In this document: in pieces, positions 1,671-62,001 of the stretch
How the letters are laid out: every line of letters begins with the position of its first letter
Position numbering within the stretch: position 1 is the stretch's first letter
From: an uncultured Bacteroidales bacterium
Lineage (GTDB): Bacteria > Bacteroidota > Bacteroidia > Bacteroidales > Paludibacteraceae
Reading direction: 5' to 3'
DNA length: 64,000 nt
Assembly (NCBI GenBank): GCA_902800215.1
Contig: CADCDS010000012.1
Span: forward strand, 34,808 to 98,807
Notes under the pieces: model-generated
What the model saw: the letters and a program-made list of their open reading frames with translations, nothing else
Told to the model about the DNA's origin: nothing
Database searches by the model: none
Program-made: the position numbers and the translations under genes

Positions 1671-2983
1671 TGGTTAAAGGGCAGGTAGATTTTATAACGC
1701 TGGGGTGTTCGAAGAATTTGGTGGATGCCGAGCGGGTGATGCGGCAGTTGGAGGCGGCAGGTTGGAGGTGTGTGCATGACCCGGAGGAGCCGAAGGGCGA
1801 AGTATGCGTGATCAACACCTGCGGATTTATCGGTGACGCGAAGGAGGAGAGTGTGAATATGATCCTTCAGATGGCGGAGCGGAAGAAGAAGGGGAAGTTG
1901 CGGACGCTGATTGTGATGGGCTGTCTGAGTGAGCGGTATCGGGCAGAGTTGGAGGAAGAATTGCCGGAAGTCGATGAATATTACGGGAAGTTTGATTTTG
2001 AGAACATGGTAGAGAGACTCGGTATCCCGGAATCCCGGAATACCGGAATACCGAAGCAATATGAGCGGAAATTGACGACACCGAAGCATTATGCGTATTT
2101 GAAGATCAGCGAGGGATGTAACCGGTTCTGTTCCTATTGTGCGATACCGCTGATTACGGGACGGCATACGAGTAGGCCGAAGGCGGAGATATTAGAGGAA
2201 GTGCGGTGGCTGGTTAGTCAAGGCGTGAAAGAGTTGAACGTGATCGCACAGGATTTGAGCAGTTATGGGCTGGATTTGGAGAAACGGCATATGTTACCGG
2301 AGTTAGTGGATGAGATGGCGCAGATAGAGGGTGTGGAATGGATACGATTGCATTACGCCTATCCGACGGATTTTCCGGAGGAGTTGTTGGATGTGATGGC
2401 GAAACATGCGAATGTGTGCAAGTATCTGGATATTGCGTTACAACATTGTACGGACCATATGTTGGGTTTGATGAGACGGCATATCAATCGGGCGGAACAG
2501 GACGCGTTGATTAAGAAGATCCGGGAGAAAGTGCCGGGCATCTGCATTCGCACCACTTTGTTGGTAGGTCACCCGGGTGAGACGGAAGAAGATTTTGAGG
2601 AGTTGAAGGCGTGGGTGAAGGAAATGCGTTTTGACCGAATGGGTTGTTTTGCGTACTCGGATGAAGAAGGAACGTACGCCAATAAGCATTATACCGACGA
2701 TGTGCCGCAAGAGGTGAAGGAACGGCGTGTGGAGGAGTTGATGGCGATTCAGCAGGAGATCAGCGGTGCGTTGATGGCGCAGAAAGTGGGCACGGTTCAA
2801 CGGGTGATTGTGGATCGGAAAGAAGGCGATTATTGGATCGGAAGGACGCAGTACGATAGTCCGGAGGTGGATTGTGAGGTTCTCGTTGAGAACATTGGAA
2901 ATTGGAAATTGGAAATTGGTGACTTTGTCAATGTTCTGATTACCAAAGCAGAAGAATTTGATTTATACGGAGAGATATGTTAA
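1670..2983 (+). CDS. rimO: Ribosomal protein S12 methylthiotransferase RimO
   Basis: RimO is a radical-SAM enzyme that adds a methylthio group to an Asp of ribosomal protein S12. The 437-residue product has the usual order: an N-terminal MTTase domain starting VDFITLGCSKNLVDAERV, then the radical-SAM core with the CxxxCxxC cluster motif in GCNRFCSYCAIP, and a C-terminal TRAM-like domain. The ATG overlaps the recQ stop by one base, and the end overlaps the next HU gene by 7 bp, so it belongs to the same transcription unit. Two short tandem arrays interrupt it, one in the linker before the radical-SAM domain (2026-2056) and one in the TRAM part (2894-2919). Both keep the frame open. Confidence 0.95.
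   Translation: MVKGQVDFITLGCSKNLVDAERVMRQLEAAGWRCVHDPEEPKGEVCVINTCGFIGDAKEESVNMILQMAERKKKGKLRTLIVMGCLSERYRAELEEELPEVDEYYGKFDFENMVERLGIPESRNTGIPKQYERKLTTPKHYAYLKISEGCNRFCSYCAIPLITGRHTSRPKAEILEEVRWLVSQGVKELNVIAQDLSSYGLDLEKRHMLPELVDEMAQIEGVEWIRLHYAYPTDFPEELLDVMAKHANVCKYLDIALQHCTDHMLGLMRRHINRAEQDALIKKIREKVPGICIRTTLLVGHPGETEEDFEELKAWVKEMRFDRMGCFAYSDEEGTYANKHYTDDVPQEVKERRVEELMAIQQEISGALMAQKVGTVQRVIVDRKEGDYWIGRTQYDSPEVDCEVLVENIGNWKLEIGDFVNVLITKAEEFDLYGEIC
2026..2056 (+). repeat. 8-bp tandem array inside rimO
   Basis: Units are CCCGGAAT, CCCGGAAT, ACCGGAAT and a partial ACCGAAG. The array encodes part of the linker between the MTTase and radical-SAM domains. Confidence 0.8.
2894..2919 (+). repeat. 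7-bp tandem array inside rimO
   Basis: Three exact ATTGGAA units and a partial fourth. Because 7 is not a multiple of 3, the units are read in three frames within the TRAM-like domain. Confidence 0.85.
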
Positions 2984-3255
2984 CAAAAGAATTGATCGGC
3001 TTGATCGGTAACGAAACAGGGCTGAGTAAGAAAGACACAGAGCAGTTATTGGCGACGATGACGGCCATCCTGCGCGAGAATCTGATGGCAGGCAAGACCA
3101 TTCAGCTCCAGGGCATCGGCACGTTAGAAGTGAAAGAGCGCAAGGAGCGTGTGATTGTTCACCCGAAGACGGGTAATCGCACGGTTTCGCCGAGCAAGAA
3201 GCAGATTGCGTTCAAGCCTGTAGCTAACATGAAGGACCATTTAAAAAAGATCTAA
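2977..3255 (+). CDS. HU-family DNA-binding protein
   Basis: This 92-residue product has the length and layout of an HU/IHF subunit: an N-terminal helical part (LTKELIGLIGNETGLSKKDT) followed by beta strands (IQLQGIGTLEVKERKERV) and a basic arm region with NRTVSPSKKQIAFKP. HU proteins bend and compact DNA as dimers. The ATG lies 7 bp inside rimO, and only 3 bp separate its stop from the next gene, which carries a second HU-like domain. Co-transcription makes a heterodimer between the two possible, but that is inference. Confidence 0.9.
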   Translation: MLTKELIGLIGNETGLSKKDTEQLLATMTAILRENLMAGKTIQLQGIGTLEVKERKERVIVHPKTGNRTVSPSKKQIAFKPVANMKDHLKKI

Positions 3256-3258
3256 GTT

Positions 3259-4383
3259 ATGGCAGAGAAACTAAGTTGGACCGAGTTACGCCGTGCGCTG
3301 GCGAGTCGTGCGGGTGTAAGTGAAAAGAGCGCAGGGGCGTTCTTGAACAGTTTCAATGCCCAGCTGATCGAGGCATTGAAGACGGAGAAACAAGTGAAGG
3401 TGAATGGTCTTGGTACGTTTAAGTTACAAGCGGTTGCCGCACGTAAGAGTGTGAACGTGAAGACGGGTGAGGAAATCACTATTCCGGGTTATAACAAAAT
3501 CGTTTTTGCGTCTGAAGCGGGTGTGAAGGAGTTAGTGGAGAGTAATGGCGAAGGGCGAATGGCGAATGGCGAAAGGCCAATGGAGAAGGGCGAAGGGATA
3601 GAGAACGATCCGTTGAAGAAGTTAGGTGTTCAGGCGGCAGAGATTGTAGATATTTTGGGCGAGTTAGGACAAAGTCCTAATACAGAGGCTAATGGCGAAA
3701 GGTTAGAGGCGAAAGGCGAAGAGCCTGTTGTGGAACCGGAACCGGTCGTAGAACCTGAGCCGGTAGTAGAGATAGAACCGGTAGTAGAACCGGTAGTAGA
3801 GCCTGTAGCGGAGCCGGTTAAAGAAGAGCCTCAGCCGGAAGAGCCGAAGAAAAAGAAAAAACATCATTTCTGGCGGGACACGCTGATTTGCGTGGTTTGT
3901 TTGCTGATTGTGTTAGTGATTGCGTTCTTCTTCTTTCGGAGTGAGATCAGCAGTTGGATCAAGTCGTTTGTAGAAGAGAACAAGACGGAGATTGTGGTGC
4001 CGGCAGAAGAGCAAGAGACGCCTGTGACTGTGACCGAAGAGGTGACAGAGACACCGGAAGTAGTGCAAGAACCGGAGGTTGTTATTGAGCCGCAGGTAGA
4101 ACCGGAGACAGCCGTTGAACCGGACTTGTCCCGTTACAAAGGATTGATCAAGACGGAAGAGATTACGGAAGGTAGTCGTCTGGCCTGGATTGCGAAGAAG
4201 TACTATGGTGACCAAGCTTACTGGCCGTACTTGTACGACGCAAACAAGGACCGTATAGATAATCCAAGTAAGATTACGATCGGCACGCCGATTCGTGTGC
4301 CGAAGTTGACGAAGGCGCAAAAGGATACCACGACAGTGGAGTTTTTGGAACTGAAACGAATCGCAGAAGAAGCGATAAGGTAA
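3259..4383 (+). CDS. HU-like domain / transmembrane / LysM fusion protein
   Basis: The 374-residue product joins three parts that normally occur apart. Residues 1-95 form an HU/IHF-like DNA-binding fold (KLSWTELRRALASRAGVSEKSAG, then VKVNGLGTFKL). Residues 95-195 are a low-complexity linker made of two tandem arrays and PEPVVE repeats. A KKKKK cluster precedes one membrane segment at about 207-227 (LICVVCLLIVLVIAFFFF). A Glu/Val-rich stretch follows, then a LysM domain at about 295-350 (LAWIAKKYYGDQAYWPYLYDAN, IGTPIRVPKL), a fold that binds peptidoglycan. The positive charges before the membrane segment predict the HU part inside and LysM outside. A role as a nucleoid-to-wall tether is inference; the domain order is seen. 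Confidence 0.85.
   Translation: MAEKLSWTELRRALASRAGVSEKSAGAFLNSFNAQLIEALKTEKQVKVNGLGTFKLQAVAARKSVNVKTGEEITIPGYNKIVFASEAGVKELVESNGEGRMANGERPMEKGEGIENDPLKKLGVQAAEIVDILGELGQSPNTEANGERLEAKGEEPVVEPEPVVEPEPVVEIEPVVEPVVEPVAEPVKEEPQPEEPKKKKKHHFWRDTLICVVCLLIVLVIAFFFFRSEISSWIKSFVEENKTEIVVPAEEQETPVTVTEEVTETPEVVQEPEVVIEPQVEPETAVEPDLSRYKGLIKTEEITEGSRLAWIAKKYYGDQAYWPYLYDANKDRIDNPSKITIGTPIRVPKLTKAQKDTTTVEFLELKRIAEEAIR
3543..3598 (+). repeat. 7-bp tandem array in the HU-LysM linker
   Basis: Eight units close to AATGGCG or AAGGGCG. They encode the linker residues around GEGRMANGERPMEKGEG. Confidence 0.85.
3691..3725 (+). repeat. Second 7-bp array in the HU-LysM linker
   Basis: Units AATGGCG, AAAGGTT, AGAGGCG, AAAGGCG and AAGAGCC, the same word family as at 3543-3598. 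They encode ANGERLEAKGEEP. Confidence 0.75.
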
Positions 4384-4408
4384 AGGTTATAGGTGATAGG
4401 TGATCGGG
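4381..4408 (+). repeat. 7-bp tandem array joining the HU-LysM stop and the uvrA start
   Basis: Units TAAAGGT, TATAGGT, GATAGGT and GATCGGG. The first unit contains the TAA stop of the upstream gene and the array contains the GTG start of uvrA. Confidence 0.75.
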
Positions 4409-10165: not shown

Positions 10166-11960
10166 ACATCTGTCGATGGAGTTCTCCTCCCGTCCGGTAT
10201 TGGATGATATCACGTTCCTCATCAACCGCAAGGAACGCATTGCGCTGGTGGGGAAGAACGGAGCCGGGAAGACGACGCTGTTGCGTCTTATTGCCGGTGA
10301 ATACCAGCCGACAGCCGGACGGATCAGTAAGGAGAGCGACATGACAATAGGATACCTGCCGCAGATGATGTTGTTTCAAGATGACCGCACGCTGAAGGAA
10401 GAGACGATGACCGTTTTCAATGGAGAAGACGAGGCTCGGTTCATCGCCGAAATGGACCGTACAATTATCGGTTTGGGATTTGAGCGGAAGGATTTTGGCA
10501 GACCCTGTTCGGAGTTCTCCGGTGGATGGCGAATGCGTATTGAGTTAGCAAAGATTCTGTTGAGACATCCGGATCTGTTGCTGTTAGACGAGCCGACGAA
10601 CCACTTGGATATCGAGTCCATACAATGGTTAGAGGATTTTTTGAAGAGCAGTCCGTCGGCTGTGCTGATGGTGAGTCACGACCGGGCGTTTATCGATAAT
10701 GTGTGCGGTAGGACGATCGAGATCACCTTAGGGCGGATATACGATTATAATGTCAACTACAGCCGATTTGTTGAACTGCGAAAAGAGCGTCATGAGCAGC
10801 AAGTGAGAGCGTACCAGAATCAGCAGAAGATGATTCAGGACACGGAGGAGTTTATTGAGCGTTTCCGTTATAAAGCGACCAAGGCGGTACAGGTGCAAAG
10901 CCGAATCAAGCAGTTGGAGAAACTGGAACGGCTGGAAGTGGATTTAGAGGACACATCCCGTTTGAACCTTCGTTTTCCGCCGGCACCGAGAAGCGGTGAT
11001 TTTCCGCTCATCGTGGAAGATCTGAGAAAAGACTTCGGGGAACATAACGTGTTTCATGACGTGACGTTTACGATACGAAGGGGCGAGAAAGTGGCTTTTG
11101 TGGGTAAGAACGGAGAAGGTAAATCGACGCTCGTCAAATGTATCATGGGACAGTTGGACTACTTGGGAAACTTGAAGATCGGTCATAACGTGAAGATCGG
11201 TTATTTTGCGCAGAACCAAGCGGCTATGTTGGATGAAGACAAGACGGTTTTTGAGACCATTGACTATGTTGCCGTAGGAGATATCCGCACAAAAATACGC
11301 GATATACTCGGTGCGTTTATGTTCGGCGGCGAAGCGTCCGACAAAAAAGTCAAAGTTCTCAGCGGAGGAGAACGTAGCCGTCTGGCGATGATACGGTTGT
11401 TACTCGAACCCTGCAACGTACTCATTCTCGATGAGCCCACCAACCACTTGGACATGCAGTCCAAAGATGTACTGAAAACGGCCCTTCAGGCCTTCGATGG
11501 CACTCTTATATGCGTCAGTCACGACCGTGATTTCCTCAACGGACTCGTCACCAAAGTGTATGAATTCGGCGGAGGACGCGTCAAAGAGCACCTCGGTGGC
11601 ATATACGATTTCCTGCGCACGAAAAAAATGACTAACCTCAATGAGTTAGAGATTAGGCAAAAAACTATTCTCACCGACGGTCAACCGACGGTCAACCGAC
11701 AGTCAACGCCAAGATCACCCCAATCTGGTGCCTTGGACTATGCAGCCCAAAAAGCCGCAGCGGCAGAGAAACGCAAGAAAGAGCGGCAGATAGCCGAAAC
11801 GGAAGACGCCATCACGGCCTTGGAGAACCAGCAGGCGGAGATAGAAGCATTGCTGGCCATCCCGGAAAATCAGACGCCGGAGATGTTTCAGAAATACGAG
11901 ACTATCAAACACCAAATAGAACAAAAGATTTACGAATGGGAGTTGTTAAGCGAAGAGTAG
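10152..11960 (+). CDS. ABC-F family ATP-binding protein
   Basis: ABC-F proteins are soluble twin-ABC ATPases that act on ribosomes rather than in transport. The 602 residues hold two modules: Walker A GKNGAGKTTL near residue 37 and GKNGEGKSTL near 322, signatures FSGGWRMR and LSGGERSR, and Walker B LLLLDEPTNHLD and LILDEPTNHLD. A charged interdomain linker with QVRAYQNQQKMIQDTEEFIERFRYKATK lies between them, and a coiled-coil C-terminal tail (about residues 535-600) follows an 11-bp tandem array. No membrane segments are present. It sits in the glycan gene chain by overlap (14 bp before, 25 bp after), but its own job is probably translational. Confidence 0.92.
   Translation: MLSIEHLSMEFSSRPVLDDITFLINRKERIALVGKNGAGKTTLLRLIAGEYQPTAGRISKESDMTIGYLPQMMLFQDDRTLKEETMTVFNGEDEARFIAEMDRTIIGLGFERKDFGRPCSEFSGGWRMRIELAKILLRHPDLLLLDEPTNHLDIESIQWLEDFLKSSPSAVLMVSHDRAFIDNVCGRTIEITLGRIYDYNVNYSRFVELRKERHEQQVRAYQNQQKMIQDTEEFIERFRYKATKAVQVQSRIKQLEKLERLEVDLEDTSRLNLRFPPAPRSGDFPLIVEDLRKDFGEHNVFHDVTFTIRRGEKVAFVGKNGEGKSTLVKCIMGQLDYLGNLKIGHNVKIGYFAQNQAAMLDEDKTVFETIDYVAVGDIRTKIRDILGAFMFGGEASDKKVKVLSGGERSRLAMIRLLLEPCNVLILDEPTNHLDMQSKDVLKTALQAFDGTLICVSHDRDFLNGLVTKVYEFGGGRVKEHLGGIYDFLRTKKMTNLNELEIRQKTILTDGQPTVNRQSTPRSPQSGALDYAAQKAAAAEKRKKERQIAETEDAITALENQQAEIEALLAIPENQTPEMFQKYETIKHQIEQKIYEWELLSEE
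11673..11706 (+). repeat. 11-bp tandem array in the ABC-F gene
   Basis: Three units of ACCGACGGTCA, the last with one change. They encode the linker before the C-terminal coiled coil (DGQPTVNRQSTP). Confidence 0.8.
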
Positions 11961-14884: not shown

Positions 14885-16956
14885 AAAGATACCTCACACT
14901 CATCGCTTTAGCGATAGGCATTACATCGCTTCAAGCGGCTACGTATTACGCGACGAACACCGCGACCTTTGCTACAGGTTTGTCCTCTCTTCAAAACCCG
15001 GGAGACACCCTGTATCTGCACGGAGGAACCTATGAGTTCAGCGACAAGGTCAGTGTCAACAAACAAGGTACAGCAGCAAAGCCCATCGTCATTATCGGCT
15101 ATCCGGGCGAGAAAGTGATTCTTGACTTTCACAAAGTAGCTTACGGCACACGCGGTCTGACTATCCATGCCAACGCACTTTACGTGCACGTAAAAGACCT
15201 GACGATCGCATGGTCAGGAAAGAATAACCTCTATTGCGAAGGATCTTACTGCCTGTTCGAAAACCTTGATATCTACGGCTCTGCAGACACCGGATGCCAG
15301 ATGAAGAAAGGCGGTAATAACGTCATTAAAAATGTGGACAGTCATGATAACTTCGACTATGAGGAGGGATTCGCACCATCAAAAGGTCAGAATGGTCCCG
15401 CTAACTTTGGTGGCAATGCGGACGGTTTTGCCGACAAGCAGTTCACCGGAGCGGGCAACCACTACATTGGTTGCCGCGCGTGGAATAACAGCGACGACGG
15501 ATGGGATTTCTTCCAGCGCGTCAGCACATCGAATACCATTATCGAGAACTGTATCTGTTACCAGAACGGTAAGCCGTACTATGACATGACCCAAAACCCC
15601 AGAGCGTCTGGCGTCGATAAGGCGTGGTTTGACCAATACGTTGGCACATCTGTTATTGATCGATATGGTAATACCATACAAATATCCCTCGAACGTTTCC
15701 CTAATTTAGGAAACGGGAACGGCTTTAAGATGGGGGGAAATTACACGGACCATAAGATCCTGATTCATCACAGTCTGGCGATCGGTAACTACGCACGTGG
15801 TTTTGACCAGAACAACAACGGCGGCACGATGTGGGTGTACAACAACACCGCTTATGACAATAATGTCAACTACGGTTTCACTACGGCCTACGGTACCAAC
15901 ACCATTCAAAACTGCATAAGTTTTGCGACCCAAAACAGCGATGCGTACAAGTCGCAAAATGTAGTTACAATTGATCATAACTCCTGGAACAACGGATTCT
16001 CCGTTAGCAAGAATGATTTTCAGTCTCTGGATACCACGCAGATTCTGGCACCGCGTCAAGCGGACGGATCGTTGGCGGAAAGCACTTGTCTGCATCTCAA
16101 ATCTTCTTCCGCACTCATCGATGCCGGCATTGATGTGAACCTTTGGTATAACGATAACGCGCCCGATCTGGGTTGTTATGAATACCCGGGTGAACGCCAT
16201 GATCCTATACCGGAAGACACTGTGCCAACGGTACAACCGGAAGGCACCCATAAGGTTGCTTTTGTCACTATTCCGGGTTGTGCGGAAGACAAACCCTTAC
16301 TGCGTTATCTGCGGCAGAATGATAGTTTGTGGATTGTGGAGACCGAAGCCGCAGACGCAACAGTGGACTACAGCAAATATGAGGTGATCGTGTTAGGCAA
16401 TAAACCTGCCTCCTCGGCAGCCGGTTTTGCAGCACTCAAGGGGTATAACAAACCCATGGTTTTACTCAAACCGTGGTTACTGAAACCCGGCGCATGGAGC
16501 TGGGGGACTGCGATTAACACTGCCGATGCCGCCGTTACCGTCAGTAACACCGATCACCCGCTTTTTGAAGGATTGAACATTACTGATGGTAGTCTCACCC
16601 TCTTTAATAGCGTCAGCACCAACGGTGTCACGGCTATCTCCGAATGGAGTAACACCGAGCTCTCCGTGCAGACATTGGGTTCTCCCGTGTCTGTTCCCAC
16701 GGCATCATCGGTCGCCATCTTATCCAATGACATCATCATGATCGGTGTCAGCGAATATTCGATGACGGATATCTCGGAAGACGGGAAACGGCTTATCGAA
16801 AATGCGATTCTGCTTCAACTCGGTATCCGCATGCCGGAAAGCATTGAAAATCCAAAATCACAGATCAAAAATCAAAAATTTATAAATAATGGTACATTAT
16901 TTATTGAAGCGTCTGGTGTTGTGTATGACGCTTATGGTCGTTGCATTCAGCGCTAA
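14881..16956 (+). CDS. Secreted right-handed beta-helix protein, pectate-lyase-like
   Basis: The 691-residue product has a signal peptide (MKRYLTLIALAIGITSLQAA). A parallel beta-helix of about residues 20-440 follows, with the run NADGFADKQFTGAGNHYIGC then RAWNNSDDGWDFF, typical of pectate lyases of the PL9/PL1 kind. A second domain (about 470-650) has LLRYLRQNDSLWIVETEAADATVDYSKYEVIVLG and resembles a glutamine-amidotransferase-like or plain alpha/beta fold. The last residues (NGTLFIEASGVVYDAYGRCIQ) look like a short type IX secretion tail. The ATG at 14881 overlaps the glycosyltransferase stop. The 3' end contains a 7-bp array and overlaps the next gene by 68 bp. Activity on pectin is inference. 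Confidence 0.8.
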   Translation: MKRYLTLIALAIGITSLQAATYYATNTATFATGLSSLQNPGDTLYLHGGTYEFSDKVSVNKQGTAAKPIVIIGYPGEKVILDFHKVAYGTRGLTIHANALYVHVKDLTIAWSGKNNLYCEGSYCLFENLDIYGSADTGCQMKKGGNNVIKNVDSHDNFDYEEGFAPSKGQNGPANFGGNADGFADKQFTGAGNHYIGCRAWNNSDDGWDFFQRVSTSNTIIENCICYQNGKPYYDMTQNPRASGVDKAWFDQYVGTSVIDRYGNTIQISLERFPNLGNGNGFKMGGNYTDHKILIHHSLAIGNYARGFDQNNNGGTMWVYNNTAYDNNVNYGFTTAYGTNTIQNCISFATQNSDAYKSQNVVTIDHNSWNNGFSVSKNDFQSLDTTQILAPRQADGSLAESTCLHLKSSSALIDAGIDVNLWYNDNAPDLGCYEYPGERHDPIPEDTVPTVQPEGTHKVAFVTIPGCAEDKPLLRYLRQNDSLWIVETEAADATVDYSKYEVIVLGNKPASSAAGFAALKGYNKPMVLLKPWLLKPGAWSWGTAINTADAAVTVSNTDHPLFEGLNITDGSLTLFNSVSTNGVTAISEWSNTELSVQTLGSPVSVPTASSVAILSNDIIMIGVSEYSMTDISEDGKRLIENAILLQLGIRMPESIENPKSQIKNQKFINNGTLFIEASGVVYDAYGRCIQR
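16847..16881 (+). repeat. 7-bp tandem array near the 3' end of the beta-helix gene
   Basis: Units AAAATCC, AAAATCA, CAGATCA, AAAATCA and AAAATTT. They encode the linker just before the short C-terminal sorting-like tail. Confidence 0.75.
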
Positions 16957-20965: not shown

Positions 20966-21005
20966 CGTTAAACCGTTAAGCCGTTAAATTGTTAAATCGT
21001 TAAAT
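20966..21005 (+). repeat. 8-bp tandem array in the groES leader
   Basis: Five units: CGTTAAAC, CGTTAAGC, CGTTAAAT, TGTTAAAT and CGTTAAAT. The array ends 12 bp before the groES ATG. Confidence 0.9.
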
Positions 21006-21295: not shown

Positions 21296-22960
<1,665 letters not shown>

Positions 22961-28242: not shown

Positions 28243-28282
28243 CGTTAAAACGTTAAATTGTTAAAACGTTAAATTGTTATGT
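28243..28282 (+). repeat. 8-bp tandem array ending in a start codon
   Basis: Units CGTTAAAA, CGTTAAAT, TGTTAAAA, CGTTAAAT and TGTTATGT. The ATG of the C1 peptidase gene is in the last unit. Confidence 0.9.
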
Positions 28283-32851: not shown

Positions 32852-32852
32852 G

Positions 32853-32880: not shown

Positions 32881-32884
32881 CAAA

Positions 32885-35012: not shown

Positions 35013-35014
35013 TT

Positions 35015-37685: not shown

Positions 37686-37708
37686 GTCGTCATGTCGTCA
37701 TTACGACA
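37680..37708 (-). repeat. 8-bp tandem array over the HAD stop and acyltransferase start
   Basis: Plus-strand units CGTCATGT, CGTCATGT, CGTCATTA and CGACA. It includes the acyltransferase ATG and the HAD stop codon. Confidence 0.85.
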
Positions 37709-38231: not shown

Positions 38232-40083
38232 CTTTCGCCTTTCTTCCTTCGGCCTTCGCCTTCTCTTTCGCTCTCCTGCGTCTCCGTTCGTCATACCGGT
38301 TAGCACTATTAAGAATGCCTTCGTAAACGGTATCGAAACCGGACTCCAGACGTTGGAACATGTTGAATTTTGACCGACGTTTCTCATCCTGCATCAGCAA
38401 GTTGAACTTGAACTGTCCGTCTCGGAAGCCGTCCTTCAGACAAGCGGCTTTGAAACGCGCATAGGCATTGGACAGCAGGATATGCGTCTCCGGTTCATGA
38501 AGACGGAACGACTGCCGTTTGGATTCATATTCGAGATTGATATGCTGCAGTTTTTCGTCCACCACTTTCGTGAATTCCTCCGCCTGCGCCTGCTTGATCT
38601 TCTCGTTCTCAAACTCGTAGTAGAAATGGTATTTGGACTCCTCCACATCGGCAAAGCCTACGAAGAACTTGGTCTTGATACCGGTCTCATCCTCCGCCTG
38701 GTGCACGGCGTCCATGAACTGCGGTTCGTACAGTTTCTCGCCCGTCATCGACACGATACCGTTCACCTTGCTGACCATATGCACGGTAGGCGTGTTCTTG
38801 AACTTTCCGCCCACTTCCACCAAGTCGTTCATGTTATAGCGGTAGAGTCCGGAATAGGTGGTTACATACGCACAGTACCGTTTCCCGAGTTCCAGTTCAT
38901 CAATCTGCAGGAAGTGTTTGCGGGGACTGCTCAGTTCACTCTCTTCCACGAACTCATAGTAATGGAACTGCGGGAAGAGCACCGACTCGTTCGTGTCGTC
39001 CAGCGAGAAACCGAAACGGCACTCCGTGGCGATATAACCCAACTCTTGATAGAAAGTCTTGTCCCAGTTGAACTGGTCCATGTACTTATCCATGTAGATC
39101 TTGGTGTTACCGCATTTCCAGGTGCTCAGGTATTGTAACCAAGGCCAGAAATCTTTCGGGTACAGATGCCCCGTTTCTGCCAGTATCTTCCGTAACTCTT
39201 CGGCTCGTTCGGGTCGCGGTGATATATATTCGTCCAACTCCGAGCGAATCTCGAACGGGATATCAAAGACATCGCTGATCGTACCTTTCTCGATGTCGTT
39301 GATCATCTCCTCGGTGTTTTCGTTAAGGGCTCTTAACAACTCCAATATTGTGGAAGGGTTCGCCGTTGCCCACAGCGTCACGTCGCGGTGCTGCAAAGCC
39401 AGACGCATGAGCACGTAGTTACGCGTTCCGTAATCGGGAATGGACATGACCGATGCCGGCGCCGTATAATGCTTCTTGATGATCTGCGGGATGTCACGCA
39501 CCAGCACACCGCTCACCGCACCAAACAAGGTGCCATCCGGCGCATAGCCTTCGCATTCCTTACCTACGGTGGTGAAGATATGTCCGCCGAAGATACGACT
39601 GCGGTGCTTGACGAAGTTCCAGGTCCAGATATGACTCATCTTGCCATAGACATCCTTGAGGTACTTATGCGTCATCGGAATCCATTTGGGTTCGGAGGTC
39701 GTACCGGACGTCGTAGCATACATATCCGGTTTACCGGGGAAGAGCACATCTTCCTCACCATGTTTATGCCGCTCTACGTAGGGCCGTAAGGTCTCAAAAC
39801 TGTCATTCACGGGTACATACAGACGGTACAGACGGAAGAAATCCTCGGCGGTCGTGGCACTAAGGATACGGTCAAAATGGTGTTCTTTTCCATAGACCGT
39901 GTCCCGAGAAATGGTCAAAATATCCCGTAAAGTCTTCTCGGCGATATGCCGTGGCTTGCGGCTCCAGAACTTCAGACGAACAGTCTGACTACCGCCTACC
40001 AGCCAAAGAATAAAATTGATTAGAAACGGGTAAGGTAACGCCCTACCCTCGTTGTCCAAATACGGTTTTATTTTCTTAGCCAT
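38215..40083 (-). CDS. GH3-like acyl-adenylating protein
   Basis: The 622-residue product matches the bacterial branch of the GH3 auxin-responsive family, enzymes of the ANL fold that adenylate a carboxylic acid and pass it to an amine. The ATP-binding P-loop-like motif is in MYATTSGTTSEPKWIPMT, followed by VTLWATANPSTILELLRAL, YIATECRFGFSLDD and YCAYVTTYSGLYRYNMNDLVEVGG. Bacterial members are poorly characterised. It follows the hemerythrin-LuxR gene by 11 bp and overlaps the HAD gene. Its Lys/Glu/Ala/Arg tail is encoded by a 7-bp array and is probably disordered. Confidence 0.85.
   Translation of the reverse strand: MAKKIKPYLDNEGRALPYPFLINFILWLVGGSQTVRLKFWSRKPRHIAEKTLRDILTISRDTVYGKEHHFDRILSATTAEDFFRLYRLYVPVNDSFETLRPYVERHKHGEEDVLFPGKPDMYATTSGTTSEPKWIPMTHKYLKDVYGKMSHIWTWNFVKHRSRIFGGHIFTTVGKECEGYAPDGTLFGAVSGVLVRDIPQIIKKHYTAPASVMSIPDYGTRNYVLMRLALQHRDVTLWATANPSTILELLRALNENTEEMINDIEKGTISDVFDIPFEIRSELDEYISPRPERAEELRKILAETGHLYPKDFWPWLQYLSTWKCGNTKIYMDKYMDQFNWDKTFYQELGYIATECRFGFSLDDTNESVLFPQFHYYEFVEESELSSPRKHFLQIDELELGKRYCAYVTTYSGLYRYNMNDLVEVGGKFKNTPTVHMVSKVNGIVSMTGEKLYEPQFMDAVHQAEDETGIKTKFFVGFADVEESKYHFYYEFENEKIKQAQAEEFTKVVDEKLQHINLEYESKRQSFRLHEPETHILLSNAYARFKAACLKDGFRDGQFKFNLLMQDEKRRSKFNMFQRLESGFDTVYEGILNSANRYDERRRRRAKEKAKAEGRKAKGEGAK
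38225..38266 (-). repeat. 7-bp tandem array at the 3' end of the GH3-like gene
   Basis: Plus-strand units CCTTCAC, CTTTCGC, CTTTCTT, CCTTCGG, CCTTCGC and CTTCTCT. They encode the tail KAKAEGRKAKGEGAK and the 5' end of the HAD frame. Confidence 0.75.
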
Positions 40084-40094: not shown

Positions 40095-40958
40095 TTATTC
40101 CAAACTATTGATGTCCACCAACTTGTTCACGATGGCATAGATCGTCAAACCGGCCGTGGAATGGATGTTCAATTTTCGACTGATATTCTTGCGATGGGTG
40201 ATGACGGTGTGGGTCGAGATAAACAGTACCTCAGCGATCTCTTTGTTACTCAAACCCTTCACGATCTGCACCAGCACATCTTTCTCCCGTTCACTCAACT
40301 CCTCTTGTTCGCCATTCGCCTTTCTATTTTCGCCCTTCGTCCTTCGTCCTTCGCCTTTCGCCATTAAAAGCGCCGGTCGCAATATATCATCCTCGATGGC
40401 ACAGTGGTCGGCAAAATCCAGTTCCGTATGCCATAGGTCACTCATCACGCTCAGCAGCGCATACGAGGTACCGGGATAGTATTTGATGATCAGGTTCTTA
40501 ATCTCCGTCAGTTTATCGGTGATCCGTTCGTCGTCATGGGCATGCTCTTCAAACAAACCGGCATTCTCATGCTCGATATGCGTCCGGATCTCGGACACAA
40601 ACTCATCGTAGCAACGGAGGATCAGCATCGGGATCTTACTGGACGACTCCGCCGGACGGATGGCGTCGATCAGGCTCTCCCGGATCTTCGGCAAACGGAA
40701 ATCGAGGAAATAGGTATGGGCGTTCTTGAGGTACCGCTGCAGCGTTTCCAGATCGATATCTGCCGGCAGTGCTTTTTGCTTGAACACCTTATAATTCACG
40801 ATAGCAAGGAAAGTAGGCGTATGCACACCATGCGCAGTACAGACCTCAGCGATGGTATGGTCCCCTACTCCCATCTCCAGTCCGAAACGACTGATAATCT
40901 GAATCGCATCTTCCTCATGCGCCATCAGATCGCATATCTTATCACTCTCCTGATACAT
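40095..40958 (-). CDS. Hemerythrin-like domain fused to a LuxR-type DNA-binding domain
   Basis: The 287-residue regulator has an N-terminal helical part of about 200 residues with well-spaced His and Glu (HTYFLDFRLPKI, THIEHENAGLFEEHAHDDER, WHTELDFADHCAIEDDILRP), the pattern of hemerythrin/RIC-like di-iron domains. A Lys/Gly/Glu-rich linker made by a 7-bp array follows. The LuxR helix-turn-helix is at about 222-287 (LSEREKDVLVQIVKGLSNKE, HTVITHRKNISRKLNIHS). Di-iron binding and sensing of oxygen or NO are inference. It has its own promoter and heads an operon with GH3-like, HAD, acyltransferase and EamA genes. Confidence 0.83.
   Translation of the reverse strand: MYQESDKICDLMAHEEDAIQIISRFGLEMGVGDHTIAEVCTAHGVHTPTFLAIVNYKVFKQKALPADIDLETLQRYLKNAHTYFLDFRLPKIRESLIDAIRPAESSSKIPMLILRCYDEFVSEIRTHIEHENAGLFEEHAHDDERITDKLTEIKNLIIKYYPGTSYALLSVMSDLWHTELDFADHCAIEDDILRPALLMAKGEGRRTKGENRKANGEQEELSEREKDVLVQIVKGLSNKEIAEVLFISTHTVITHRKNISRKLNIHSTAGLTIYAIVNKLVDINSLE
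40308..40370 (-). repeat. 7-bp tandem array in the LuxR regulator linker
   Basis: Nine units close to TTCGCCA or TTCGTCC on the plus strand. They encode MAKGEGRRTKGENRKANGEQ, the same word family as at 3543-3725. Confidence 0.9.
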
Positions 40959-41043: not shown

Positions 41044-42405
41044 TTAGAAATTGTACTTGGTCATAAGCTGCACGCGGTGGTTGGTCACCCAATGCAGACC
41101 ATTCAGCGCCAGACCGTGATTGTCCACCGGGCCTTGACCGTACTGCACGGAAGTGATTTCGTACTCGCAACCCAGTTGGAACTTACCGATCGTCCATACG
41201 AGGGTCGGACTCAGACGCCACATCTGGTGCATATTACTCGGACGCGGCGTGTAGAGTGCACCCACCAGTTCATCCTTCGTACCGAAGTTATGGATGTAAC
41301 CTCCAAAGAGGATACCCTGTAACTTCTGCGGATGTTTGTCTTCCTGACGGCCTACTTTACCGCCATAGACGATGCTGATCCAGGTGGAGCTGTTCCGTGT
41401 CGGGGTGTATTCATATGAACCGTCTGCGTTGATCTTGCTCACACCGTATCCGCCGTTAAGGTTCATGTGTTCTCCGGCCGAAGCAAAGATCGACTTGGCC
41501 TTGAACGAGAACTCACCCTGCTTGTACTGCAGATAGACGAAGGGGGAAGCGGTCGTGATACGATCGTTCACCTTCACTTTTTCTCCTGCTGCATCCGTTC
41601 CCAAATGCCGCGGTTTGATGCTCAGCACATCGGCACCGGCACGGAAGAGCCAACCTTTGTCATGCACCGAGATACCCACATATGCCTCAGGGGTCTTGCT
41701 GTAACCGATATACTCCGCCGATTGACCTTCCGGACCCGTCGAGTTGTACTGCATCTGCCAGATACCGGCAGCGGTCAGGGTGAAATACTTGCCCAAACGG
41801 GCATCCATCTTCACCTGCGGTGTACGGCTGAACGGACCGAACGGTGCGCCTGAGTTCAATGCGATGGCGTCACAGAGGTCTGCTGCCATCGGGTGCCAAG
41901 CCTGACCAATCAACAGATCCACACGTGCATAGTCTTTACCCATCTTCAGACTGTCCCAACCCAAGGTCAGGTACGCCTGACGAAGACGGAACTGCGCCAC
42001 ACCCGAAACGGAGTGTGTCTGAGCGGTCTTGGTACTCAATCCTGCATAGAAATCGGCTTCAATCTTACCGCCGAACTCAGTCTTGCCCCATTGGTAACCG
42101 ACGATATTCAGTCCCACACGGGTGGTCAGACTCAGAAAACGGAACGTCGAGATAGCATTCAGGTCATCCCCGTACGCATTCAGGCTCTGATCCTTCGGCT
42201 GGTAGTTATACAAGTCACCCGTTCCCGAGATAGACTCCCGGCTGTCGTAGGTGAAATAGTTACGAATGAACCCGTAGGGTTTGAAATGCTGCTTGAGATG
42301 ACTCTTAGCCGCTTCTTTCATAGCGTCTTTCTTCACTTCCTGCGCCGATACAGGAACACAGACCAAAAGGCTAATAGCAAATAGCCAACAGCTAACATGT
42401 TTCAT
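41044..42405 (-). CDS. Outer-membrane beta-barrel protein, porin-like
   Basis: The 453-residue product has a signal peptide (MKHVSCWLFAISLLVCVPVS, cleaved at AQ), partly encoded by a 7-bp array. Many amphipathic strands follow, such as FKPYGFIRNYFTYDSRESIS, FRLRQAYLTLGWDSLKMGKD and FQLGCEYEITSVQYG, and the last residue is Phe (TKYNF), as expected for an outer-membrane barrel. It starts 2 bp after the DASS symporter stop, so the pair is co-expressed: the barrel may let the anion through the outer membrane and the symporter take it in. The ligand is unknown. Confidence 0.82.
   Translation of the reverse strand: MKHVSCWLFAISLLVCVPVSAQEVKKDAMKEAAKSHLKQHFKPYGFIRNYFTYDSRESISGTGDLYNYQPKDQSLNAYGDDLNAISTFRFLSLTTRVGLNIVGYQWGKTEFGGKIEADFYAGLSTKTAQTHSVSGVAQFRLRQAYLTLGWDSLKMGKDYARVDLLIGQAWHPMAADLCDAIALNSGAPFGPFSRTPQVKMDARLGKYFTLTAAGIWQMQYNSTGPEGQSAEYIGYSKTPEAYVGISVHDKGWLFRAGADVLSIKPRHLGTDAAGEKVKVNDRITTASPFVYLQYKQGEFSFKAKSIFASAGEHMNLNGGYGVSKINADGSYEYTPTRNSSTWISIVYGGKVGRQEDKHPQKLQGILFGGYIHNFGTKDELVGALYTPRPSNMHQMWRLSPTLVWTIGKFQLGCEYEITSVQYGQGPVDNHGLALNGLHWVTNHRVQLMTKYNF
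42368..42395 (-). repeat. 7-bp tandem array encoding part of the porin signal peptide
   Basis: Plus-strand units AGGCTAA, TAGCAAA, TAGCCAA and CAGCTAA. They encode the hydrophobic core of the signal peptide. Confidence 0.8.
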
Positions 42406-44025: not shown

Positions 44026-46116
44026 TTAGTCCTCTTTTTTCTCTAAATCGTACCGAAAACCGATGTAGGCTTTCCATCCGGTGGTGGGTCCGCATACCAT
44101 GGATGCATCGAAGTCAGCACCCCAAGGATGAAAAGAATCCACAATGGACGGATCTTGCCGGAAATTGGTCATGTTCTCTGCGCCTACATAGATGCTGCAG
44201 GTACGGAAATACTTAGTGATCTGCGCCATGAGTTGCGGATACCAGGTGAAGGGTTGTTCAAACCCGTCCGGAACCCGGCTGACGCCGTTAAACTGCGCCG
44301 TGAGATCAAACTGCCATTTCTTGAGCGGCGTCTGGTAACTCGTCGTGATGATGCCTTTGAAACGGTTCGTGAGCGCTTTGGTGCGTAACCGGGCTATACC
44401 GTCGCTACCGATCGTGGTCTGTTTCACGTCCGTGTAGCGGAAAGCAGCGGTCCAGGTCCATCCTCTGAGCACCTCCATTGACGCTTCGATCTGCGCACTG
44501 TGCGCAAACGATTTCGCGCCCGGCAGATCGGTCTGGTTGTAGAAATAGACGGCATGTTTGTCCCTATCCAAATCGACGATCAGCGAGTTCAGGAAATGCG
44601 TGTAGTAATACTCCATGCTCAGTTGCAGTTCCCGCTTTCCCATCGGGATATAGAAAGTCGTTGAGAGACCGGCATTCACCGCTTTCTCTTGTTCTAACTC
44701 ATGCGTCATATGACTTATATCCGCAGGTGTGCCGTCAAAACGGTCGAAATACATCTGCCGATTGGAAGGCAGGATAAAGGCATTGTCCGAAAGCACGTAA
44801 GGAGTCCGGTACCCCATACCGACACTACCTCGGAGTGTCCACCATTCGAAAGGCGTATAACGGATATTCATTCGCGGCGTGAAGAAGAAACCATAATGCG
44901 GTGACCAATCCGCTCGCACACCGGCTACGAGACTCAGCATCTCGTCGTATTTGAGGTTATATTCGGCGAATAGACCCGGCACAACATCCAAATGGCTGAA
45001 ATCGGTACCACTGACATAGTTTTGTCTGGACGCATTATACACACCCAGCCAATCGTAATAAAGATCCATATTTACGGACAAACCGGCAGTCAGACGGTGG
45101 TCATTATCCACTTCACCGATACCTTCAAAATTGCCTTGCCACATGGCGTTGATGTATGCATTCCACTCATGTGCCCGTCTGTGACGCAAACCGTACAGGT
45201 TATCGAGGTTATGGTAACTGAGTGCAGCGATGACGGCGATAGACGAACCGCTCTCCGGATCATAGACGTAGCCGTTCTTGATATATCCGTCTATGCGCCA
45301 AGTGTTGAGGTTGATGCGGTAGGGATTAGCAATCGAATCGGCTAACTGACCACCGCGACGACGGTCATACAGACCTCTTACAAAAGCCTGGAAGGTATAA
45401 TCACCTTTACGCAGCACCCATCGGTTCGCCAGGTTGGCATTTTGAATTAACGGCATATCGACGAACGAGTCCTTGTTGCCATCCATCGGCATGAAACTGC
45501 CGCCGTAATGCGCCAGCACACCGGTGTATAACCGTTCGCCATTCGCCTTTAACCGTTCGCCGTTAATCTCCCAACCGCCCATCAGGTTCGCTTCCGCCAT
45601 CAGTTCGGAATTGAACATGAGGTTAATGGACAGCGGATTCTGGATCTGCGGTTTGAGTAACTCCACGTTGATCTGTCCCGAAGTGGCTTCGTATCCGTTG
45701 ACGACGGAGGACGTACCTTTACTCACCTGAATCGACTGCATCCACGGACCGGGGATATACTCCAGACCAAAGGTCTGCGCCAGGCCTCTGACGGCAGGAG
45801 TGTTCTCCTGAATCAACTGCACATACGTACCGCTCAGACCCAACAGACGGATCTGCTTGGCACCTGTCGCCGCATCGGCATACGCTACATCGACGGACGC
45901 ATTGGTTTCAAAAGCTTCGCTTAGGTTACAGCACGCCGCACGGCAGAGTTCATCGGAGTTGAGTTTCTCCGTGTCAAAGGCTTCGGTACGGCTCTTCACC
46001 TTCCCTTTCTTACGCTGCACAACGGTGACCTCCTCCAGTTGGAAGTCACTCGCCTCCTGCGCGTACGCAGGTGCGCATAAAATAATTATAAGGAATAGAT
46101 AGATGCTCCGTCTCAT
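44026..46116 (-). CDS. TonB-dependent outer-membrane receptor, probably for a metal or metal complex
   Basis: The 696-residue product has a signal peptide (MRRSIYLFLIIILCAPAYA), a TonB-box-like segment LEEVTVVQRKKGK, a plug with the Cys cluster ELCRAACCNLSEAFETNASV, KQIRLLGLSGTYVQLIQENT and NGYEATSGQINVELLKP, and a 22-strand-type barrel ending in a basic KKED tail. The N-terminal carboxypeptidase-like domain common in SusC proteins is absent, so it is not a SusC-type glycan importer. The ATGA overlap with a heavy-metal-domain gene upstream points to a metal, perhaps copper. A 7-bp array in the barrel adds INGERLKANGERLYTG. Confidence 0.88.
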   Translation of the reverse strand: MRRSIYLFLIIILCAPAYAQEASDFQLEEVTVVQRKKGKVKSRTEAFDTEKLNSDELCRAACCNLSEAFETNASVDVAYADAATGAKQIRLLGLSGTYVQLIQENTPAVRGLAQTFGLEYIPGPWMQSIQVSKGTSSVVNGYEATSGQINVELLKPQIQNPLSINLMFNSELMAEANLMGGWEINGERLKANGERLYTGVLAHYGGSFMPMDGNKDSFVDMPLIQNANLANRWVLRKGDYTFQAFVRGLYDRRRGGQLADSIANPYRINLNTWRIDGYIKNGYVYDPESGSSIAVIAALSYHNLDNLYGLRHRRAHEWNAYINAMWQGNFEGIGEVDNDHRLTAGLSVNMDLYYDWLGVYNASRQNYVSGTDFSHLDVVPGLFAEYNLKYDEMLSLVAGVRADWSPHYGFFFTPRMNIRYTPFEWWTLRGSVGMGYRTPYVLSDNAFILPSNRQMYFDRFDGTPADISHMTHELEQEKAVNAGLSTTFYIPMGKRELQLSMEYYYTHFLNSLIVDLDRDKHAVYFYNQTDLPGAKSFAHSAQIEASMEVLRGWTWTAAFRYTDVKQTTIGSDGIARLRTKALTNRFKGIITTSYQTPLKKWQFDLTAQFNGVSRVPDGFEQPFTWYPQLMAQITKYFRTCSIYVGAENMTNFRQDPSIVDSFHPWGADFDASMVCGPTTGWKAYIGFRYDLEKKED
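45527..45568 (-). repeat. 7-bp tandem array in a loop of the TonB receptor
   Basis: Plus-strand units TATAACC, GTTCGCC, ATTCGCC, TTTAACC, GTTCGCC and GTTAATC. It encodes two ANGER-type motifs. Confidence 0.8.
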
Positions 46117-48023: not shown

Positions 48024-48051
48024 CGTTATTACGTTATTACGTCATTACGAA
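48024..48051 (-). repeat. 8-bp tandem array between the giant surface gene and the OmpA gene
   Basis: Plus-strand units CGTTATTA, CGTTATTA, CGTCATTA and CGAA. The words are close to those at 37680-37708. Confidence 0.85.
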
Positions 48052-58975: not shown

Positions 58976-58979
58976 GGGG

Positions 58980-59007
58980 CATTCAGCATTCAGCCGTCAG
59001 CATTCAG
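58980..59007 (-). repeat. 7-bp tandem array over the hipA stop codon
   Basis: Plus-strand units CATTCAG, CATTCAG, CCGTCAG and CATTCAG. The stop codon of hipA (59004-59006) is in the last unit. Confidence 0.85.
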
Positions 59008-60451: not shown

Positions 60452-60453
60452 TT

Positions 60454-60515: not shown

Positions 60516-60537
60516 AAAAATGAAACTTGCAAATAAA

Positions 60538-60567
60538 TTAGTAATAAAATTATTAGTAATAAAATTA
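60538..60567. repeat. 15-bp direct repeat
   Basis: TTAGTAATAAAATTA occurs twice in tandem, in AT-rich non-coding DNA. Confidence 0.8.
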
Positions 60568-60665
60568 TTACAATCCTAACTTACTGATTTTATGCAATAT
60601 ATCTAAAAATAAATAAAAGTAAACCTATGTAAGAGAATTTGGTCAAAAAAGTCCCAAAATATTTC

Positions 60666-61719: not shown

Positions 61720-61729
61720 GATTTGCACG

Positions 61730-61758: not shown

Positions 61759-61760
61759 CT

Positions 61761-61795
61761 GCTAACAGCCAATAGCTAACAGCTAATAGCCAACG
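61761..61795 (-). repeat. 7-bp tandem array after the small peptide stop
   Basis: Plus-strand units GCTAACA, GCCAATA, GCTAACA, GCTAATA and GCCAACG. Confidence 0.85.
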
Positions 61796-61799
61796 TCAT

Positions 61800-61958
61800 T
61801 TACCACTGATCGCCGGGGATGTCGGTGTGAACACCCATGGTGTTAGCAGGGCTGGCTGCCTGCATGAGACCCATCGAGGCGAATTGTGCTACCTGCACAG
61901 AGGGATTGATATAATGCTTCTTCTTAGCCACGAGGGCACGATTAACTTCGTTTTTCAT
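61800..61958 (-). CDS. Small 52-residue peptide of unknown function
   Basis: The frame runs from ATG at 61958 to TAA at 61800. The product begins MKNEVNRALVAKKKHYINPS, continues VQVAQFASMGLMQAASPA and ends HTDIPGDQW. The basic start, the YINPSVQVAQF core and the acidic/Trp end resemble the short Bacteroidota peptides that start with M-K-K followed by Y-x-x-P and a hydrophobic stretch, whose role is not known. It has no clear signal peptide. The 5' leader is an 8-bp array, and a 7-bp array and terminator follow. It lies 37 bp after the beta-helix gene and is probably co-transcribed. Confidence 0.65.
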   Translation of the reverse strand: MKNEVNRALVAKKKHYINPSVQVAQFASMGLMQAASPANTMGVHTDIPGDQW

Positions 61959-61961
61959 AAT

Positions 61962-62001
61962 TCTTAACAATTTAACCGTTTAACAATTTAACGATTTAAC
62001 G
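61962..62001 (-). repeat. 8-bp tandem array from the beta-helix stop codon to the small peptide leader
   Basis: Minus-strand units CGTTAAAT, CGTTAAAT, TGTTAAAC, GGTTAAAT and TGTTAAGA. The first unit contains the last codon and stop (CGT TAA) of the beta-helix gene. Confidence 0.9.

Follow-up and report, generated by a model that had tools for sequence, protein, structure and literature searches.

Tandem arrays of 7-, 8- and 11-nucleotide units in a Bacteroidales genome and its genus

Heptamer repeats of cyanobacteria are known as short tandemly repeated repetitive (STRR) sequences, and reports of bacterial genomes rich in heptamers go back to 2007 or earlier. Here we describe arrays of this kind, with units of 7, 8, or 11 nucleotides (nt), from a 64-kb window (the whole stretch of DNA that was analyzed, C12:34808-98807) in the draft genome of an uncultured Bacteroidales bacterium, probably a rumen dweller, and from its relatives. 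We favor, with moderate confidence, the reading that the arrays are short satellites of the STRR or heptamer simple-sequence-repeat kind (units of 5 to 11 nt), made in place and turned over slowly by a process that favors particular unit lengths and particular cores.

The closest described systems have much in common with these arrays. GGGAATC-type heptamers in Xanthomonas and GGGGAYT heptamers in Nostoc were described by Rehm et al. (2015, PMC4692102), who give the consensus GGGANTN, with positions 1 to 4 and 6 conserved and the others free, and similar repeats in Nostoc. In their account four units are the commonest number, the repeats are over-represented in noncoding DNA, and most of them are found between corresponding genes in two Xanthomonas species, with much variation in length and sequence. 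Arrays of TAACTGA before start codons have been reported from Beggiatoaceae, some cyanobacteria, and five Bacteroidetes, including Paludibacter, and other heptamer arrays accompany TAACTGA in some of these Bacteroidetes (MacGregor 2015, PMC4679880). A sequence-only reading of the window had drawn the parallel to STRRs, which is apt, but knew of no named equivalent in Bacteroidota, a statement that the TAACTGA report overturns. As cited in the same paper, Mrazek et al. (2007) found heptamers to be the commonest long simple sequence repeats (LSSRs, the 5- to 11-nt class), and a 7-nt polymerase contact was proposed as the cause (via PMC4679880 and PMC4692102). Heptanucleotide repeats of the forms TDNGATT and NNTGAGT are also found in the tRNA-Leu intron of Nostoc (PMC4476775).

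Unit lengths and shared words in the genome and the genus

Arrays were detected with Tandem Repeats Finder (TRF; score ≥30) and with an autocorrelation scan (match +1, mismatch −2) at a cutoff of 14 (strict) or 12; these thresholds were our choice. TRF recovered 22 of the 23 arrays that the sequence-only reading had listed, the one without a TRF row, at 42368, being weak. Autocorrelation scores lay between 10 and 20 for 18 of the 23 and below 10 for the other five (7 at 3691, 7 at 38225, 9 at 42368, 6 at 45527, and 8 at 61761). In the window TRF gave 14 rows for period 7 and 9 for period 8, compared with means of 1.20 (maximum, 2) and 1.24 (maximum, 4) in 25 Markov-3 shuffles. At a score of ≥14 the scan found 6 period-7, 7 period-8, and 1 period-11 arrays but none of period 5, 6, 9, or 10, and no arrays at that score appeared in 30 Markov-5 and 30 Markov-2 simulated windows. 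Shuffled sequence thus fell far below the observed counts, the opposite of the equal numbers that the sequence-only reading had named as the outcome that would tell against it. Searches of the window for tRNAs and Rfam families found none.

The genome comprises 1,963,562 bases in 30 contigs and is 85% complete; 836,957 bases of it (the window and 40 further stretches) were sampled. Since some of these stretches were chosen from contigs with an octamer match (C3, C6, C18, and C20), the period-8 count may be slightly favored. At a score of 12 the sample held 240 arrays, and heptamers predominated, as in STRRs: 143 were of period 7, 48 of period 8, 20 of period 11, and 12 of period 9, followed by periods 12 (6 arrays), 6 (5), 10 (3), 5 (2), and 13 (1). 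Tandem units of 5 to 11 nt are therefore above chance at many loci of the genome. Contigs C1 and C2, which were not picked for repeats and lack octamer matches, gave 35, 7, and 4 arrays of periods 7, 8, and 11 in 260 kb at a score of 14. The median number of units was 4.4 for periods 7 and 8 and 4.1 for period 11, the lower end of the range being set by the score threshold. We read periods 14, 16, 21, and 22 as mostly multiples of the basic units. Periods 15, 22, and 23 were rejected as classes of their own: by eye, several arrays, including several of period 15, alternate 7- and 8-nt units with a shared core (ATTGACG/ATTGGACG and CATTTAC/CATTTGGT, for example), and others are unrelated.

The same lengths recur among the relatives, all of them draft assemblies, unevenly sampled and with one genome per species (G-numbers, with G000 the window's genome; an L-number with a position denotes a locus). 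Counts of period-7/8/11 arrays at a score of 14 were 113/38/13 in 837 kb of G000, 28/13/15 in 480 kb of G002, 17/2/7 in 193 kb of G003, 29/4/8 in 440 kb of G007, and 7/1/2 in 76 kb of G006. Small samples gave 3/0/10 for G009 (47 kb), 0/0/3 for G012 (36 kb), 1/0/3 for G005 (15 kb), 0/1/1 for G004 (20 kb), 2/0/0 for G001 (4 kb), and none for G010 (5 kb). G011 gave 0/2/13 in 160 kb, with no heptamers among its 15 arrays. G008 gave 0/0/0 in 120 kb, and with 40 kb added (160 kb in total) it showed one period-7 and three period-9 arrays. Eight species of other Bacteroidales families, pooled to 330 kb, gave 0/0/1. The arrays are thus shown by most sampled species of the genus and hardly by the eight species outside it, and scanning the genome and its relatives, as the sequence-only reading had proposed, revealed a genome-wide family whose unit lengths recur in other species of the genus. 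In a UvrA tree, G011 is the first branch within the genus and G008 with G010 the next, both forks being well supported.

Outside the arrays, near-exact two-copy duplications were in excess at the same spacings (33 seen for 3 expected at lag 7, 21 for 3 at lag 11, and 11 for 3 at lag 8), and lags 10 (3 for 3) and 13 (2 for 6) were at or under expectation. Some of these duplications may be decayed or subthreshold arrays.

Words recur between loci far more often than chance allows, as the sequence-only reading had noticed. With rotation and strand ignored, the 113 period-7 arrays at a score of 14 in G000 formed 191 same-word pairs, whereas random genome words gave 6.2 (maximum, 13); the corresponding figures were 39 versus 0.17 (maximum, 2) for period 8 and 4 versus 0 for period 11. 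The lexicon is nonetheless large, with 60 different words among the 143 period-7 arrays, and species have favorites of their own: ATTGGAN in G000, AAAGTCG and AACACTC in G007, and AACCATT in G002. None of 31 words or subwords was enriched as a single copy outside the arrays (ratio, 0.59 to 1.32), which implies that the array, and not the word, is the thing made and leaves the idea of ordinary dispersed regulatory motifs unsupported. Three successive copies of the octamer GTTAAAYY matched at 39 places in G000 (overlaps counted) and were present in 3 of 394 other genomes across the phylum. A search of named genomes found at least 116 such stretches, a lower bound on the spread; among the 80 records listed, most were from Bacteroidota, many of them from rumen, with rumen Bacteroidales and Paludibacteraceae frequent, and Symploca, Chlorobiota, Verrucomicrobia, and Patescibacteria also appeared among the matches listed. 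The heptamer word GGTGATT (AATCACC) is also common to many 11-mers, as at L083:17614-17690 in G011 and in G002, G003, and G007, and through it the 7-mer and 11-mer classes may share a core.

Constant cores and placement relative to genes

The arrays had been described as uniform inside, but their units vary, and in 12 of 21 word families (at least four arrays each, whole genus) the variation was biased by position at P < 0.001. Counted against each array's own consensus, deviations at successive positions numbered 0, 0, 2, 0, 5, 7, 25, and 20 for GTTAAANN (19 arrays, 79 units) and 1, 1, 1, 37, 4, 15, and 4 for AATCTCC (34 arrays, 138 units). The other 9 of the 21 families did not reach P < 0.001, which counts against a reading in cores and free positions; the AAAGTCG family showed no bias (P = 0.68). 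Since the chi-square test assumes independent deviations and duplicated units are not independent, these P values are too small. A family-free count of same-position pairs, which shares this weakness, gave 128 versus 53 (maximum, 73) for period 7 and 51 versus 26 (maximum, 44) for period 8, and an unexceptional 14 versus 9 (maximum, 18) for period 11. More weight than to the P values attaches to the finding that separate loci share their free positions. The pattern was similar within and outside genes in the four families checked, and since successive 7-nt units inside a gene fall in different frames, codon constraint should not yield it.

Genes were called with our own hexamer-based caller, which is simple for starts (coding fraction, 0.90). 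Intergenic, straddling, and intragenic arrays numbered 46/17/80 for period 7, 31/12/5 for period 8, and 19/0/1 for period 11, compared with 9, 2, and 89% of random places; noncoding DNA is thus over-represented, as in STRR-type repeats (46 of 143, 31 of 48, and 19 of 20 intergenic versus 9%). Within 20 nt of a called start lay 24 of the 48 period-8 arrays, and within 20 nt of a stop 30 of the 48, compared with 5% and 6% of random places and with 13% and 11% of random intergenic places. The bias toward gene boundaries that the sequence-only reading had described therefore holds, whereas its claim that catalytic cores are spared holds only in part: 80 of 143 heptamer arrays are intragenic, and 61 period-7 arrays lie entirely within called genes. 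In a random sample of 22 intragenic arrays from 20 proteins, 13 lay within a Pfam envelope, 1 only within a lower-ranking one, 5 outside, 2 at an edge, and 1 in a protein without a Pfam match. Envelopes that hold arrays include those of UbiE, DHDPS, RibD, CoaE, PrmC, AlaRS, and UvrD types. Hosts in this sample were mostly housekeeping enzymes, with a GrpE type among the host genes; two were TonB-receptor-like, and no concentration in surface or contingency genes of the kind expected of phase variation was seen in these 20 proteins. The aligned intragenic examples fall in length-variable stretches, and 76 intragenic period-7 and -8 arrays (at least 30 nt from gene ends) showed no clear trend in position along the gene.

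Orientation differed between words. Most GTTAAAYY arrays lie no more than about 20 nt from a called start, and the word was in sense orientation in 13 of 15 orientable cases and antisense in 2 (10 and 2 in tandem gaps); among the words it alone resembles the start-oriented leader arrays of the TAACTGA type. GGCGAAN was sense in 15 cases and antisense in 1, TTRGCTN was antisense in 14 of 17, and AATNTCC was mixed (31 sense, 18 antisense). In the 80 listed loci of other genomes, the orientation of GTTAAAYY was mixed: of 87 arrays, 28 were scored ++, 19 −−, 12 −+, and 11 +−, and 17 lay at contig ends. Stops on both strands occur in 20 of 34 intergenic period-8 words, and TTAA gives stops on both strands; a role of GTTAAAYY as a six-frame stop-codon insulator was rejected, since positions outside the stop codon are equally constant. 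Among the 61 period-7 words inside genes, 10 hold a sense-strand stop in some frame; a few of these genes may have been miscalled, or the stop may lie out of frame. Intragenic arrays translate to peptides such as ISNLQSPISN and IGNWKLEIGN, which may resemble peptides in hypothetical proteins of other phyla.

Turnover between species and candidate explanations

The arrays of the window are listed below by coordinates and strand (a point where no strand is given); "both" denotes detection by TRF and by the scan.

2020..2053, +, period-8 CCGGAATA, linker between the UPF0004 and radical-SAM domains of a RimO/MiaB-type gene (both)
2894..2919, +, period-7 ATTGGAA, near the 3' end of the RimO/MiaB-type gene (both)
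3547..3597, +, period-7 GGCGAAN, Bac_DNA_binding (HU-like) gene, variable region behind the HU domain (both)
3686..3720, +, weak period-7 AGGCGAA, same Bac_DNA_binding (HU-like) gene (TRF score 35, autocorrelation 7)
4384..4404, +, period-7 AGGTGAT, stop/start junction ahead of a uvrA-type gene (TRF)
11673..11707, +, period-11 ACCGACGGTCA, before the C-terminal domain of a gene with two ABC_tran domains, whose product we name ABC-F type (both)
16847..16879, +, period-7 AAAATCA, near a gene overlap (TRF)
20966..21005, +, period-8 CGTTAAAY, 12 nt ahead of a called start (both)
21298..21332, +, period-8 GTTAAAYY, fills a called stop/start gap (both)
26447..26481, +, period-7 GCTGTTG/GCTATTG (both)
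28243..28279, +, period-8 (16) GTTAAAAC/GTTAAATT, gap between an open reading frame (ORF) ending at 28237 and the next ORF starting at 28279 (TRF)
29458..29489, +, period-8 CGTTAAAC, over the stop codon of the upstream gene (both)
32850..32886,., period-7 AGCTAAN, between convergent genes (both)
34977..35014, −, period-7, sense NAGCYAA, gene start/stop junction (both)
36161..36195, −, period-7 CATTGTA, intragenic (both)
37679..37701, −, period-8, sense ATGACGAC, over a stop/start junction (both)
38225..38271, −, weak period-7 CCTTCG(N) (TRF score 30, autocorrelation 7)
40329..40362, −, period-7, sense GGCGAAN, intragenic (both)
42373..42397, −, weak period-7, sense NAGCTAA (no TRF row, autocorrelation 9)
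45532..45564, −, weak period-7 CCGTTCG (TRF score 38, autocorrelation 6)
48024..48049, −, period-8, sense CGTAATAA, stop/start gap (both)
58979..59007, −, period-7 GCATTCA (TRF)
60537..60570,., period-15, ATTAGTA + ATAAAATT, possible 7+8 composite (TRF)
61761..61794, −, period-7/14 GCTAACAGCCAATA (TRF, autocorrelation 8)
61964..62001, −, period-8, sense GTTAAAYY, over the upstream stop codon, its end 5 nt short of the next called start (both)

Longer repeats also occur in the window. In the HU-like gene, 18- and 12-nt coding repeats (EPEPVVEP-like, 3721-3815) lie beside the heptamer arrays, and several relatives have their own versions of them. A 60-nt tandem repeat of 3.4 copies occupies 26050-26252, and a 45-nt repeat of 2.8 copies, probably a coding repeat, occupies 46931-47058 within the ORF at 46576-48006. 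Around position 32000 genes change from mostly + to mostly −, with a maximum of cumulative GC skew as at a replication terminus, and a single ORF of 2992 amino acids fills 48054-57032 on the − strand. The 12 period-9 arrays of the G000 sample were set aside, and some are inverted. At L046:5832-5878 and 6051-6098, (TGGCGANNN)n is followed by inverted units, and at L239:18408-18457 (TGAGAANNN)n is followed by (NNNTTCTCA)n, each forming an imperfect palindrome. A 23-nt repeat starting AGACCGCT was seen at L256:2746-2845 in G007 and at L229:2091-2140, L030:17836-17891, and, on the opposite strand, L031:7754-7797 in G002; the L229 and L031 copies contain GCGAAGC, a mini-hairpin sequence, or its complement.

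Presence and absence of arrays vary between species, as the sequence-only reading had foreseen. Of 164 G000 arrays at a score of 14, 161 had enough flank for comparison; both flanks were matched in 62 array-by-relative pairs, with an array present in 18 and none in 44. When segments were limited to ≤200 nt, 42 pairs (34 arrays) remained, and the orthologous place held an array in 10 and none in 32, compared with 0.56 (maximum, 3) for random places and 2.8 (maximum, 8) for random gene boundaries. Only 1 of these 10 had the same word by strict comparison, 9 had another, and 6 kept the period. Intragenic length differences were multiples of three in 28 of 28 pairs, versus 5 of 14 other pairs, which indicates that intragenic arrays are really translated.

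Individual loci illustrate this turnover. The RimO linker carries CCGGAATA in G000; at this site G002 and G004 have a related word, CTCGAAAT, and G003, G006, and G007 have no array; the array near the RimO 3' end is the same in G003 and absent from G002, G004, and G006. The 33-nt AlaRS array at L094:16546 is also found in G002, where most units keep AGC..TT and differ elsewhere. The array at 4384..4404 has AAGAGTG-type units in G003, and that at 16847..16879 an AATCACC/AATCAAA array near the same junction there. At 11673..11707 the counterpart is a closely related 11-mer in G002, a 7-mer in G003 and G007, and nothing in G006. G003 has another word, ATTTGAA, at 36161..36195, a 7-mer array, ATCAATT, in the place of the octamer at 37679..37701, and no array at the place matching 32850..32886; no array corresponds to 40329..40362 in G002. 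Alignment gaps of 18 nt occur inside genes relative to G002 (L101:10379 and L101:8899), and one of 24 nt relative to G002 and G003 at L058:9712, outside genes by our caller. The GTTAAAYY array at the L057:9813 junction is longer by 24 nt, or 3 × 8, than its counterpart in G002, which keeps the seed CGTTAAATTGTTATG.

If the arrays are short satellites made in place, 7, 8, or 11 nt of local sequence would be duplicated where they stand, in a first step that would favor these lengths and not 10 or 13, and the array would grow to about four units where extra DNA is tolerated, namely, in intergenic gaps, stop/start junctions, and length-variable protein stretches. In the protein stretches only frame-keeping lengths would survive. 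The array would be homogenized within a lineage and would then decay, be lost, or be replaced by another word. Its core could stay constant because it is read by the duplication machinery or by a nucleic-acid-binding factor, and seeds at gene boundaries would place TAA- and TTATG-bearing octamers in stop/start gaps in sense orientation. We infer both that the process is slippage and that the core has a reader. In favor of growth in place are the spectrum of periods, the excess of two-copy duplications at 7, 8, and 11 nt, and the excess of arrays at orthologous places. It also fits the seed at L057:9813, the RimO words, a unit number that stays near four, the absence of single-copy enrichment, and the keeping of frame within genes, and one RimO word in G000 with a related one in G002 and G004 is what homogenization within lineages would give. 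The sequence-only reading had implied a copying mechanism or a slippage hot spot; a few examples support duplication in place, and copying between loci finds no such backing. Loss of mismatch repair does not explain the arrays, since mutS was present in 21 of 21 and mutL in 20 of 21 genomes searched.

Several observations weigh against this account. Inside genes only 1 of 23 nonzero length differences was a multiple of the unit (21 nt, at L101:8021), so change by whole units is not the apparent rule there, and a clear unit-multiple difference at a junction was seen only once. The flank-to-flank lengths of the AlaRS array in G002 and of the RimO 3'-end array in G003 are identical to those in G000, unlike what fast slippage would give. 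Two-copy duplications were also raised at lags 6, 9, 12, 15, and 18 (22/3, 26/4, 20/4, 33/5, and 19/3 seen/expected), which we read as coding repeats, and at lags 14 and 16 (27/3 and 12/3), which we read as compounds. Plain slippage predicts neither a shared lexicon nor fixed free positions, so an extra reader is needed, and growth in place would by itself leave the three discrete lengths, the lexicon, the constant cores, and the nonunit intragenic differences unexplained. A bolder proposal, which we judge unlikely, is that the genus has dedicated, length-specific array-making activities, at least one for 7 nt, a separable one for 11 nt, and possibly a third for 8 nt. Each would read a short core, leave a few positions free, and place arrays of some four units in gaps and in the loops of enzymes that are essential. 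Of these activities, that for 11 nt would have come first, as the first-branching G011 has 11-mers but no heptamers in 160 kb, the 7-nt activity would have been gained within the genus, and both would be nearly absent in G008.

A constant core with free positions, seen both within genes and outside them, would also suit functional arrays of binding sites. Each unit would then be a site for an RNA- or DNA-binding protein, made up of a core and an unconstrained spacer; 5' leaders would be one setting, in line with the proposal made for the TAACTGA repeats of Beggiatoaceae. The start-proximal period-8 arrays and the prevailing sense orientation of GTTAAAYY in stop/start gaps and of GGCGAAN point the same way. 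We nevertheless consider this explanation unlikely, because the words are not enriched as single copies, AATNTCC occurs in both orientations and GTTAAAYY is mixed in the 80 listed loci elsewhere, the host genes are assorted housekeeping genes, and most orthologous places lack an array or hold another word. Copying in trans, in which an amplified word would seed arrays elsewhere by template switching or gene conversion and so build a genome-specific lexicon, would account for word sharing within the genome and for the favorite words of each species. We hold it to be quite improbable, given that alignable relatives already hold part of the word (at the RimO 3' end and at two further loci) and that no transferred array was found in a search that did not extend to flank sharing between same-word arrays.

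Hypermutable contingency loci, at which gain or loss of units would switch genes by shifting the frame, are suggested by unit lengths of 7, 8, and 11 nt, none of them a multiple of three, and by the many arrays that overlap or adjoin starts and stops. This idea is very hard to reconcile with the 61 period-7 arrays within genes, where frequent frameshifts should be costly in hosts such as the AlaRS, UvrD, GrpE, DHDPS, and CoaE types, and with intragenic length differences that without exception keep the frame. The draft state of the genome might have hinted at an artifact of composition or of metagenome assembly, but this is refuted: shuffled sequence gives essentially no arrays, and relatives in the genus have the same unit lengths, with some arrays at the same places, whereas the eight species of other families hardly show them.

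Comparison with described repeat systems

This kind of repeat is already in print, also for five Bacteroidetes; the unit lengths, the shared words, and the presence of arrays in housekeeping genes are unusual. In the literature searched we did not find three coexisting unit lengths, a large lexicon, an intragenic load, and a species contrast with an 11-mer-dominated species described. A genus with three coexisting lengths, one mainly 11-mer species, and one nearly empty relative is a natural experiment: a comparison of a dozen small genomes could locate the genetic basis of unit length. That variation is confined to certain unit positions even inside genes, in which successive units fall in different frames, suggests that some factor recognizes the unit. 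To identify this reader would account for repeats that are widespread but poorly understood. Through the arrays, housekeeping enzymes also acquire new stretches of peptide.

Two cyanobacterial plasmids, 100 kb each, held 0 and 2 period-7 arrays and are poor comparators, and three Symploca contigs (20 kb), picked for GTTAAAYY and with those octamers counted, held 9 seven-mers and 8 eight-mers. The Nostoc intron repeats, as described in PMC4476775, likewise combine a core with free positions, and their AATCTTC unit also occurs here (canonical form AAGATTG, 3 arrays), but they are part of one RNA structure in one intron, whereas the present arrays are dispersed. The LSSR survey, as cited in PMC4679880, ranks heptamers as most abundant in most genomes, whereas 11-mers dominate some species here; the lack of heptamers in 160 kb of G011 argues against a unit length fixed by a single 7-nt polymerase footprint.

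The TAACTGA repeats, as portrayed in PMC4679880, resemble the present arrays in forming short, oriented arrays just upstream of start codons, and the phyla overlap. That system rests on one 7-nt word whose one-base variants are rarely repeated, whereas here the lexicon is large and GTTAAAYY octamers take that position; none of the 143 period-7 arrays has a TAACTGA-class word. The heptamers of Xanthomonas and Nostoc, in the features given in PMC4692102, share with our arrays the 7-nt unit, the number of about four units, the excess in noncoding DNA, the division into conserved and free positions, and variation in sequence, and probably in length, between related species. Their words are G rich, whereas GGG or CCC occurs in only 18 of 143 period-7 words here, chiefly ACGGGTT (15 arrays), unlike G-quadruplex heptamers of the GGGNATC type. 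The arrays described here comprise dozens of words in three unit lengths (7, 8, and 11 nt), and many of them lie inside genes.

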